DNA of 64,000 bases from Nitrospirota bacterium. GTDB lineage: Bacteria > Nitrospirota > Thermodesulfovibrionia > Thermodesulfovibrionales > UBA1546. Below, in pieces: positions 21,659-47,019 of this stretch. A program made the position numbers and the translations under genes. The DNA lies in contig JACPZK010000033.1 of assembly GCA_016195565.1 (NCBI GenBank), forward strand, positions 1 through 64,000, in the 5' to 3' direction. Every line of letters begins with the position of its first letter. The first letter of the stretch is position 1. The notes beneath the pieces were generated by a model. It had not been told where the DNA came from. It searched no databases and worked only from the letters and a program-made list of their open reading frames with translations.

Positions 21659-22054
21659 ATGACCTACAGTAATTTTTTTTCCGGCCTTGTTGGTACACTC
21701 TTTGGCGTCATTGCCACTCTTGCCATCTACCTGCACAGTCGATACACCGCTTCCAGAAGAGCCCTCGCCGACAGGCTCATTATTCTTCGCTATGATGTTT
21801 GGTGGAACTGCACTGACACCGACGTGTTCAAAACGTGGGACGCAAGCCTTAAGGATATCTGGATTCTCTACAACGCTTATTACGACGTTGCTCCGCTGTG
21901 GCGAAGGCGCAGCATTAAAAAGGCATGGGATAAATACAAAGGAGTAAATCACTACATATTGGATCACCTTCCCAATGTTCCTGATGTTAAAATGTTTCCA
22001 AAATCTAAGGAAGAATTTATTCAAAATATCACATCCTTTCTAAAGGCATTATGA
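21659..22054 (+). CDS. Small membrane-anchored protein of unknown function
   Basis: 131 residues starting MTYSNFFSGLVGTLFGVIATLAIYL, one N-terminal membrane anchor, then a soluble charged part (LADRLIILRYDVWWN; APLWRRRSIKKAWDKYKG). A GTTAG site lies about 150 bp upstream, and an attC-like hairpin starts 8 bp after the stop, the arrangement of an integron cassette gene. I do not recognise the family. An overlapping minus-strand frame is judged spurious. Confidence 0.6.
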   Translation: MTYSNFFSGLVGTLFGVIATLAIYLHSRYTASRRALADRLIILRYDVWWNCTDTDVFKTWDASLKDIWILYNAYYDVAPLWRRRSIKKAWDKYKGVNHYILDHLPNVPDVKMFPKSKEEFIQNITSFLKAL

Positions 22055-22061
22055 AAAAGTT

Positions 22062-22118
22062 CGCTAACAAAGCACTCGTGCCGATTCGCTCCGCTCCCGG
22101 CACAGTTTCATCGTACGA
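22062..22118 (+). repeat. attC-like site, degenerate
   Basis: Core GCTAAC (22063-22068), then hairpin GTGCCG (22078-22083)/CGGCAC (22098-22103). The right-hand GTTRRRY core is not intact (CGTACGA instead). It begins just after the stop of the small membrane protein. Confidence 0.5.
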
Positions 22119-22197
22119 AAAAATATATTTCAGAGAAAATGACATCGTCGTCAATGACCGAATTAAATAAAAATTTGGGACTGAGAAGGAGTGAAGT

Positions 22198-23889
22198 GTG
22201 GCAATAGAACCAGCCCCTTTTAATTACCATAATTATCTTGGAGATAGATATGTGGTTAATGATATTAAAGAAGGCGGTGCTGGCATTGTCTATCTCTGCT
22301 ATGATAAGTTTCTCAAGGCGCCTGTTGCTCTCAAAACATTCAAGTTTAATAGCGATAAAGATTGGAAAACTGTTCTTGCTCATTTTATTTCTGAGGCAAA
22401 GAAGTGGATACATATTGGGCAAGACATTTACGTTGTTCAGGCGTATTATATTCACAACATTGAGATGGAACATGGTATTGTTCCTTTTGTAGCTATTGAG
22501 TTCATAGAAGGGCATGAATTATATGGAAACTCTCTCAGGGGTTTTATCGCGAAGGCATCCTTTAACTTAGAACTAATTTTGAATATTGCCATTTCAATTT
22601 GTAACGGCATGCTTCATATTCAAAATAAATTCTTGAACGCCATATTTGTACACTGTGACCTCAAGCCTGAAAATATATTGCTTTCAAAAGAAGGTAGTAT
22701 AAAAATCACCGACTTTGGGATATCTAAGACTCTCTACGATAATTCAGATAGGCTTAGCTCCCTGAATCAATCTTCTATAGGCAGTGACGGTAGATTTTCT
22801 GTCGGGTTGACAAACAATATCTGTGGAACACCTCCTTATATGTCACCAGAGCAATGTTTAGGCTTAAAATCAATAGATCAATGTTCAGACATATATTCAT
22901 TTGGTTGCATTCTTTATGAAATGTGTACAAAAAGGTTTGTTTTTCAAACACATGTCCTAAGTGACTTTTTTATAAGCCATATTAGTGAAGTGCCAATCTC
23001 ACCTGATTTGCTTAATCCAGATATCCCAAGTGAATTATCAAAATTAATTCAACAATGCTTATCGAAAGACCCTAAAAATCGCCCGCAACAATTTAAGGAA
23101 GTAAGAGACATTTTAATGAATATTTTAAATCAAGAATATGGACAAGGAAGTGGCGTTAGATTTTTTACTTTTGGCTTCTCGGGATTTACTGATAAACCCA
23201 GAGTCAAATCTGATTACAACATGAGCAGGGAGAATGAGGCACTTCTTCTTGGAAAAACAATGGGTGTTGAATATGTTATAGACCAGGGCTTAGTAAGCAG
23301 TAAGAATGAATTTGATATGCTTGATGCAGACTATGAAAAAAACAGAGATAGTCAAAGAAAATTATCGGAATATAACAGACAAGTTGAAAAGGCGGAAGAA
23401 CAGCTTCTTGCAGGTGATTCATTTTTAAAGCTTTATGAAGCGGCTGAGCCCGATGAAGGCTTAGAACTCATCAGGTCTGCTTTAAATAATTACTACTTTG
23501 CACAAAAAGTTCTATCCCTTGAACCTGAATTAAGCTTTAGGATCGGCATTGCAAATTTCAATCTTGCAGGAATACTAAGAAATGAATATAACAAGGTTTT
23601 GTTAAGTGATGATTATATTGCCATTGCCATCGGAGAATTTAATAGTGTATTAACAATAATGGAAGAACCAGAGCTAATTTCCATAGGCTCACAATTCTAT
23701 CTTTTACCCTATGCAGCCTTGTTTTATCGCGCCGGTGCAAATGCTTTAAAAAACGAAAAAGACAAGGCATCAAATGATTTTAATAAACTGATAGCATGGC
23801 TTGAAAAAAGTAACATACCCAAATATGAAGGAATAAAAAAATATTTGATAGAAACTGCATCTGAAGGCTTGGAGTTACCGAATGATTAG
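22198..23889 (+). CDS. Hanks-type serine/threonine protein kinase
   Basis: A 563-residue soluble kinase with GTG start behind GAGAAGGAG. The kinase domain covers about residues 15-310: glycine loop EGGAGIVYL, catalytic Lys in VALKTF, HCDLKPEN (HRD variant with Cys), DFGIS, and the activation-segment end GTPPYMSPEQ. APE, DxWSxG-type and helix I motifs are present (DIYSFGCILYEM; SKDPKNRPQ). The C-terminal ~250 residues are helical and repeat-like (possibly TPR). There is no membrane span and no adjacent phosphatase. It sits between two attC-like sites. Confidence 0.9.
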   Translation: MAIEPAPFNYHNYLGDRYVVNDIKEGGAGIVYLCYDKFLKAPVALKTFKFNSDKDWKTVLAHFISEAKKWIHIGQDIYVVQAYYIHNIEMEHGIVPFVAIEFIEGHELYGNSLRGFIAKASFNLELILNIAISICNGMLHIQNKFLNAIFVHCDLKPENILLSKEGSIKITDFGISKTLYDNSDRLSSLNQSSIGSDGRFSVGLTNNICGTPPYMSPEQCLGLKSIDQCSDIYSFGCILYEMCTKRFVFQTHVLSDFFISHISEVPISPDLLNPDIPSELSKLIQQCLSKDPKNRPQQFKEVRDILMNILNQEYGQGSGVRFFTFGFSGFTDKPRVKSDYNMSRENEALLLGKTMGVEYVIDQGLVSSKNEFDMLDADYEKNRDSQRKLSEYNRQVEKAEEQLLAGDSFLKLYEAAEPDEGLELIRSALNNYYFAQKVLSLEPELSFRIGIANFNLAGILRNEYNKVLLSDDYIAIAIGEFNSVLTIMEEPELISIGSQFYLLPYAALFYRAGANALKNEKDKASNDFNKLIAWLEKSNIPKYEGIKKYLIETASEGLELPND

Positions 23890-23898
23890 AAAGCCAGC

Positions 23899-23988
23899 GT
23901 ACAACAACCAAATCGAGGCGACAGGGGATAGCCTCTGTGGTTTTTTGCAAGGGCTGGTTGCCCCTGCGCCTCATTTAGTGCGTTAAAC
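23899..23988 (+). repeat. attC-like site after the kinase gene
   Basis: Long imperfect hairpin with arms GAGGCGACAGGGG (23915-23927) and CCCCTGCGCCTC (23961-23972). It ends with GTTAAAC (23982-23988), which fits GTTRRRY. The left core is ACAAC rather than a clean RYYYAAC. Confidence 0.55.
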
Positions 23989-28410: not shown

Positions 28411-28496
28411 GCAGGAATTATACATGTATGGTTAGAATCATGTAAATCATCAAGCCCTATATAATAAATACTGATTCGGTATAATCATTATTCCTG

Positions 28497-28563
28497 TTGA
28501 CTAATCAATTAATCGCCTTCTATAATCACAACAAATGTCGCAGCAGTATAAAATATAATGTTA
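28497..28563 (+). promoter_or_regulatory. Promoter plus GTTA module, copy 1 (other copy 46611-46676)
   Basis: TTGACT (28497-28502), 18-bp spacer, TATAAT (28521-28526), then exactly 33 bp to GTTA at 28560. The last 16 bp (ATAAAATATAATGTTA) are identical to 46661-46676. The following 100 bp, up to the NTase gene, hold an imperfect inverted repeat (TAACCCCACC/GGCGGGGTTA) and no gene. Confidence 0.6.
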
Positions 28564-28663
28564 ACCCCACCTCTCCCCCAGCAAATCCCTTCCTGAAAAA
28601 TTTTAAGCCTTCAGCAGTCAAAGCAGTGCTATGTTTTCAGTTGAATTGCAAAATAAGGCGGGG

Positions 28664-45934: not shown

Positions 45935-46234
45935 TCATGGGAGTTTCAGAATCCTTTCACTTCGCCATATGCGTACAATCCGCACCTTTTTTTTATCGCA
46001 CCTATACACAATACGGAATGGAGGCTTAATGACTTCGCGCAGATATTCAATATTAAATTCAGGCACTACGCGCCCGCTTTTGGGATGATCCACAAGCCGC
46101 TCAATAGCTGAGACTAATTCTTCTATCAAACGCCTTCCTGTCGCTGCTGTGCCTTCGCTGTCGTAATATGCCTGAATACCCTCCAAATCAGAAACAGCAG
46201 ATTCCGCAAATGAAACTGGTGTCTTTCCTGCCAT
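45935..46234 (-). CDS. ParE/RelE-family toxin
   Basis: 99 residues. SFAESAVSDLEGIQAYYDSE, IERLVDHPKSGRVVPEF and LREVIKPPFRIVYRCD are the ParE pattern. It follows the Phd-type antitoxin gene by 4 bp. The 316 bp between it and the FAD dehydrogenase hold no convincing gene. Confidence 0.88.
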   Translation of the reverse strand: MAGKTPVSFAESAVSDLEGIQAYYDSEGTAATGRRLIEELVSAIERLVDHPKSGRVVPEFNIEYLREVIKPPFRIVYRCDKKKVRIVRIWRSERILKLP

Positions 46235-46238
46235 TACT

Positions 46239-46508
46239 TTATTTCATCCCAAGCTTTTTCTTCACGTCTTTAAGGGATGCTTCCCGCCCCTCTTCCAGAT
46301 CCATCAATCCCTTTACAACGCCCCGCATAAAAAGACGCTGTTCGCTCTCTTCCTCATAGTCTTTGAGCGCCTGCACAACCGCAATGCCGCGCCCCCTGCT
46401 TGTCAGCAGTATCGGGCGGTGAGTTTCAGCTACATGAGAGACGACCTTGCCGGGATTTACCTTCAAATCACTGAGAGGGACAATATCTTCAGAAAACTTG
46501 ATGCCCAT
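46239..46508 (-). CDS. Phd/YefM-type antitoxin
   Basis: 89 residues; EDIVPLSDLKVNPGKVVSHV and PILLTSRGRGIAVVQ are the Phd/YefM DNA-binding fold. The C-terminal tail is acidic/helical. It has AGGAGG and a consensus promoter (46545-46573), whose downstream CCAGTTA repeats could be autoregulatory operators. Confidence 0.88.
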   Translation of the reverse strand: MGIKFSEDIVPLSDLKVNPGKVVSHVAETHRPILLTSRGRGIAVVQALKDYEEESEQRLFMRGVVKGLMDLEEGREASLKDVKKKLGMK

Positions 46509-46573: not shown

Positions 46574-46610
46574 TGCAGTGTATATATGCAGTGCAACCTT
46601 TTTCATTCGC

Positions 46611-46679
46611 TTGACTATATCCCTTCCCTTCACTATAATTCATCGTATTATTGAATCAACATAAAATATAATGTTAGGC
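46611..46679 (+). promoter_or_regulatory. Promoter plus GTTAGGC recombination-like site
   Basis: TTGACT (46611-46616), 17-bp spacer, TATAAT (46634-46639), 33 bp, then GTTAGGC (46673-46679). Same geometry and same terminal 16 bp as the module at 28497-28563. GTTAGGC fits the GTTRRRY integron core. The cassette ORF follows. Confidence 0.7.
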
Positions 46680-46703
46680 TCATGCTTCTGGGGGAGGTGA
46701 CAC

Positions 46704-46922
46704 TTGACAGAGCGAGAACAAACCGCAGCGCAATTGTGTCGGATAGCTGCCGATGACTTCAGATACGGCGAAAAGGCGCAGATGCAGGCTATTGAGTCAC
46801 TCGCCAACTTCACCGAATTCCCGTTCGTCCTAGCGACATTGCGCAGGATGGCTGGCGACGATTTCACTTATGGAGAGAGGGCTTCCCTCAAGGCAATGGA
46901 GATTCTTGGTCGTGTTCGATAG
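46704..46922 (+). CDS. Two-repeat helical protein in an integron-like cassette
   Basis: 72 residues, TTG start with GGGGGAGGTGA upstream. It is an internal duplication: LCRIAADDFRYGEKAQMQAI and LRRMAGDDFTYGERASLKAM align over about 24 residues each, suggesting a HEAT-like helical repeat pair. The gene lies between a GTTAGGC core and a complete attC site. Function unknown. Confidence 0.7.
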   Translation: MTEREQTAAQLCRIAADDFRYGEKAQMQAIESLANFTEFPFVLATLRRMAGDDFTYGERASLKAMEILGRVR

Positions 46923-46954
46923 ATCGAAAATTCTACTTCTGCGGTCATGCCCAA

Positions 46955-47019
46955 GCCTAACCCTGCATTCGAGAGGGACTGCGCAAAAGCGGCGCAGCCC
47001 CTCAATTTGAACGTTAGAT
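46955..47019 (+). repeat. attC recombination site of an integron cassette
   Basis: Outer cores GCCTAAC (46955-46961, RYYYAAC) and GTTAGAT (47013-47019, GTTRRRY). Inner arms GAGGGACTGCGC (46973-46984) and GCGCAGCCCCTC (46992-47003) pair with one mismatch, with extra unpaired bases between the inner and outer arms as in real attC. 65 bp. Confidence 0.85.

Follow-up and report, generated by a model that had tools for sequence, protein, structure and literature searches.

Complete integrons, those of classes 1–3 and chromosomal ones, share an attI-like core ending in GTTRRRY, a promoter (Pc) that reads into the first cassette, and attC sites with R″ and R′ boxes and a bulged stem. In the textbook integron, expression is limited to the cassettes closest to the single attI. 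CALINs are defined by attC alone, without a nearby integron integrase gene (intI), and, according to a report on Xanthomonas (PMC12444791), can be mobilized in trans; the same report describes integrons and CALINs at seven conserved loci, with integron remains far from intI and frequent intI loss. Single cassettes are also inserted outside attI or attC, at divergent attG sites spread over many loci. In Δ-attI-type gene cassettes (PMC12901181), extra attI copies occur away from the usual place, as short attI pieces that replace attC at the cassette 3′ end within an array. Current integron finders target intI and attC rather than attI, and IntegronFinder 2.0 detects attI for class 1 only and by default requires two attC sites (PMC9024848); attI–Pc sites standing without intI, here called orphan platforms, would therefore be missed.

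The locus described here lies in a 64,000-nt stretch of DNA (hereafter, the window), positions 1–64,000 of contig C33 in a 2.3-Mb assembly of 33 contigs (G000); G001, G002, G004–G007 and G011 denote genomes compared with it. We propose, with a probability of roughly 0.8, that the feature is an orphan attI with its Pc, without intI and with one cassette, and that it is a copy of a dispersed family loaded by an integron integrase (IntI) acting in trans. The promoter, the attI homology, the cassette boundaries, the attC, the multi-copy dispersal and the cassette differences at the same locus are all evident from the sequence. The site shares with complete integrons the attI-like core, the promoter directed into the first cassette and the attC, but it has no adjacent intI, is one of about 15 sites per genome rather than the only one, and holds one cassette rather than an array. 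Like CALINs, platforms have attC without a nearby intI, yet they keep attI and Pc, and the window site, with its one attC, falls outside the default CALIN definition of at least two attC sites close together without intI. Integron remains far from intI and frequent intI loss are features shared with Xanthomonas, whereas in Xanthomonas there is one canonical attI locus, at ilvD, and the accessible part of the report does not mention a dispersed attI–promoter family (PMC12444791). An attG site likewise receives a single cassette but is a divergent target unrelated to attI, whereas the target here is a conserved attI homologue. In contrast to the Δ-attI pieces, the platform stands upstream of its cassette, includes the promoter and occurs at separate loci. 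Our search of the accessible literature found no report of a dispersed family of orphan attI–Pc platforms.

A preliminary description of this locus had named a strong promoter, a GTTAGGC motif, a 72-residue open reading frame (ORF) and a 65-bp attC, all of which were confirmed in place. The Pc hexamers, TTGACT at 46611–46616 and TATAAT at 46634–46639, are separated by a 17-nt spacer on the forward strand (46611–46639) and match the consensus at 11/12 positions. This putative near-consensus promoter, recognized by its sequence, stands 33 nt upstream of GTT and reads into the first cassette. The entire conserved element occupies 46610–46679 of the forward strand and is 95% identical to its counterpart at the equivalent locus in G005. 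It scores 68.5 bits with R1, a sequence-only model trained on 10 platform copies (two from G000) that include this one and the second platform of the window. Its attI core, CATAAAATATAATGTTAGGC (46660–46679, forward strand), is common to the intI-linked attI sites of G001 and of loci L146 and L150 and terminates in GTTAGGC at 46673–46679; the predicted crossover point lies between G46673 and T46674. The platform core ATAAAATATAATGTTAGGC is also similar to the attI2 core AATAAAATGTTRRRY (PMC12901181).

Platform subtypes carry different short palindromes at one position, ~12 bp left of the core (46651–46659 in the window): TTGAATCAA in the window-type platform and CGCATGCG in most others. In intI-linked attI sites, two directly repeated copies of the CGCATGCG motif are present. 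A phd/parE-type toxin–antitoxin pair is located at 45935–46508, on the intI side of the window platform, and in G005 (C101, locus L087; C85, locus L086) such a pair is doubled, each copy adjoining a platform; the two platforms belong to different attI subtypes.

From crossover to crossover, the inserted cassette measures 340 bp (46674–47013, forward strand), and it opens with TTAGGC, which is reverse-complementary to the GCCTAA of its own R″, as is characteristic of a cassette boundary at a GTT crossover (GTTAGGC/GCCTAAC). The 72-aa ORF (46704–46922, forward strand) has a TTG start, 4 nt downstream of the Shine–Dalgarno sequence GGAGGTG (46693–46699); it matched no Pfam or NCBIfam family, and searches of 396 genomes from the phylum, of plasmids and of viral contigs yielded no relatives. 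The 65-bp attC (46955–47019, forward strand; R″ GCCTAAC, R′ GTTAGAT) gives the cassette's 3′ end its R″/L″/L′/R′ structure, the final 6 bp of the site (47014–47019) being the former right half of attI. The plain pattern RYYYAAC-N-GTTRRRY is not usable by itself, since reversed-pattern controls match as often, and Rfam at gathering thresholds returned only 5S rRNA and tRNAs, with no attC. A structure scorer and an Infernal covariance model (R2) were trained on the same 15 attC sites, taken from relatives and one class 1 cassette, with the window site left out. The covariance-model check suggested by the preliminary description gave 35.0 bits (R2, E = 1.5 × 10⁻⁵; window search, filters off), and the independent scorer gave 48.2, compared with a null that reached at most 23.3 across 30 simulated windows of 64 kb. 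The bottom strand of the site folds at −14.1 kcal/mol (z = −3.0 against shuffles), and ~65 bp align at 79–80% with the attC belonging to the class 1 integron cassette blaOXA-9.

Two further elements of the window had been overlooked. One is a second orphan attI–Pc platform (28496–28565, forward strand; R1 47.9 bits as a member of the training set), apparently without a co-oriented cassette gene, whose core was found by pattern, with 0/100 shuffles matching. The other is a second attC (23899–23988, forward strand; scorer 46.2, R2 34.4 bits) directly behind an ORF for a Ser/Thr protein kinase (22198–23889; Pkinase, E = 1 × 10⁻³⁷), and it exemplifies the additional attC sites, detected by R2, on whose presence in the genome the integron reading had been made to depend. 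The surrounding stretch (21659–23988) is a two-gene cassette-like arrangement without intI or platform, in which a 131-aa ORF and a weak attC-like site (22067–22114, 14.5 bits) precede the kinase ORF and its strong attC. Beyond the window, where contig C33 ends, an inverted cassette array (C33:67609–68660, L027) contains an alpha/beta-hydrolase-like gene and two attC sites.

A left-flank search in the genus revealed that the 80 bp immediately preceding the cassette are also present at further loci, where they stand upstream of other single cassettes. At E ≤ 0.01, R1 finds 15 copies in G000 (13 of them outside its training set), 10 in G001 and 13 in G011; at E ≤ 1 × 10⁻⁶, the platform is present in 34 of the 177 genomes searched from the order, including 14/15 from the family, and in none of the other 143. 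A public scan produced matches in Nitrospirae and Thermodesulfovibrionales genomes, plus two labelled Deltaproteobacteria; the clade bearing the family is probably the Thermodesulfovibrionales of the Nitrospirota. The layout is TTGAC, 17–18 nt, a TATAAT-like hexamer, 33–35 nt and GTTA. Among 42 platforms examined, 39 were measurable, with a hexamer spacing of 17 or 18 in every case and a distance of 33–35 from the −10 hexamer to GTT in 37. Nearly all examined copies lack intI. Judged by homology, the window site is a member of a dispersed family with about 15 stand-alone sites round the G000 chromosome. On contig C30 (19790–21774, L125), three tandem platforms separate small two-gene toxin–antitoxin-like modules and an SMR-like transporter cassette; in front of each platform, part of the upstream gene's 3′ end is repeated.

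Genome-wide, R2 identifies 11 attC candidates in G000 at E ≤ 1, and eight of these also fall below E = 0.005. An attC lies on the same strand within ~1.2 kb downstream of 3/15 G000 platforms by R2 (the window site on C33, C26 and C30) and of a fourth, on C29, by the scorer only, against a chance expectation of 0.04 pairings (11 attC matches, 4.6 Mb of strand, 15 platforms). The remaining copies have a co-oriented gene without a recognizable attC, or, at C33b, C5 and C10, appear empty; no attC was found at these three or at C22 and C24. Among relatives, attC sites follow platforms in G001 (two), G002, G005 (two), G006, G007 and G011. When the four variable bases after GTT were compared with the R″ of the respective cassette at 14 loci, 51/56 positions agreed, a value reached by 0/100,000 permutations, and agreement was perfect at 10 loci; four of the 14 had been picked by eye, and the ten found by the scorer include eight of the perfect ones.

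Comparison between species indicated that the contents of platforms turn over while the platforms stay, since the same loci and platforms hold different cassettes. The window locus in G005 has flanks 94–95% identical and the same platform, with a different ORF and attC, which lends indirect support to excision and insertion by IntI. Upstream of coaE, three different cassettes are found in G001, G002 and G011, the last belonging to another genus, and contents also differ at C30/G001, C32/G001, C6/G001 (G001 apparently empty) and G006/G011. In all, orthologous platforms with differing contents were observed at the window locus and five other loci.

At loose E-values, the integrase profile TIGR02249 matches all 14 control genomes; since it also catches XerC/D, only matches with integron-type C-termini were counted as intI. 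In G001, the platform layout occupies the stretch between intI and the first cassette, and the public scan added intI-linked platforms in JACRNJ010000052 (L150) and JAVHLL010000001 (L146, whose intI was matched as two separate pieces). At three orphan platforms, homology to the intI-linked region extends leftwards and ends at the intI start codon. The shared layout and this homology indicate that the element is an attI with its Pc, and that the integrase gene is the missing part. The window platform is itself homologous to the intI-adjacent attI of L153/G001, L150 and L146, and intI is absent within 1.5 kb to its left.

In agreement with the preliminary description, no integrase gene was found in the window: integron integrase matches in G000 fall on contigs C5, C26, C4 and C17, with none on C33. 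The search elsewhere that it had recommended did locate intI in G000, though solely its C-terminal ends, the gene being cut off at contig starts where the assembly breaks. Contigs C5 and C26 (C5:1–166, L029; C26:1–205, L030) begin inside one intI C-terminus with 141 identical bases and then diverge, and these 141 bases also close C33 and C10, right after an attC in an inverted cassette array; this looks like a duplicated G000 integron, with the region common to both copies missing from the assembly. The two G000 intI fragments are of another type, with 61% identity to the G001 integrase over 49 aa and 96% identity to that of G004:C220. The cognate, G001-type intI was not found in G000, G002, G007 or G011, and G011, with its many platforms, gave no intI match at E ≤ 1 × 10⁻³⁰. 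The lack of a cognate intI match in G000 and the small number of G000 platforms with an attC weigh against the proposed reading. C-terminal intI remnants stand beside orphan platforms in G007 (C62, 32 aa) and at locus L152 (12 aa), indicating that at least some orphan platforms arose through intI loss. Either the platforms are served by another IntI type, or the cognate one is lost and regained over time, or in some species the platforms are no longer active.

The remnants also bear on the possibility that the platforms are nothing but relics, the remains of separate complete integrons whose intI was lost long ago and whose cassettes are frozen. The many platforms without a recognizable attC and the missing cognate intI in the four genomes named above point the same way, and we regard this as a possible explanation at clearly less than even odds. 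However, contents differ at every compared orthologous platform, even between flanks 94–95% identical, which implies that exchange continued until recently, and many promoters and cores are still intact. The preliminary suggestion of an integron that lost its integrase is likewise too simple as an account of one integron, for the integrase-less unit recurs at about 15 G000 sites. Its other suggestion, a cassette captured behind a promoter, holds as to the capture and the lack of an adjacent integrase, but its promoter, far from being unrelated, forms a single conserved unit with attI.

That unit makes it improbable that IntI placed the cassette in a chance attG-type site behind an unrelated promoter. 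Insertion at attG is known (cited in PMC12901181 and PMC12444791) and would leave a single attC without intI, but the 70-bp element is conserved across loci and species, keeps a fixed promoter-to-GTT distance, matches intI-linked attI and precedes other cassettes elsewhere; because it is a conserved family, we reject a chance insertion. We hold it equally improbable that a dispersed family of promoters, perhaps bound by a regulator and unrelated to integrons, attracts cassettes: although the strong sigma-70 promoter, the palindrome CGCATGCG common to many copies and the five G000 copies devoid of attC would suit such a family, at three loci the element lies where attI is expected, with intI on one side and the first cassette on the other, and it terminates at the GTT crossover point. 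Dispersal at unrelated loci might also suggest a MITE-like or transposon unit that includes both the cassette and its promoter, but terminal inverted repeats are not notable (22-nt arms at 77%, separated by 533 nt) and flanks are conserved while the content changes, leaving this explanation very improbable indeed.

Under the orphan-attI reading, an IntI supplied from another place in the cell, or present in an ancestral one, would act in trans and join the folded attC of the cassette to the window attI, between the G and TT of GTT. The Pc would be placed to transcribe whichever single gene is inserted, and the site may still be active in present-day cells. In vivo, the platform would take the role of an integron's insertion end without being a complete integron. 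We give about even odds to the wider idea of a distributed integron, in which a dozen or more attI–Pc docking sites without intI each carry one expressed cassette, exchangeable in trans and always in first position. The pairs with the same locus and different cassettes offer a direct route to testing trans action of IntI on orphan attI. If the idea is true, dispersed attI–Pc sites would let many cassettes be expressed together from safe chromosomal places, and the chromosome would become an expression panel for mobile genes.
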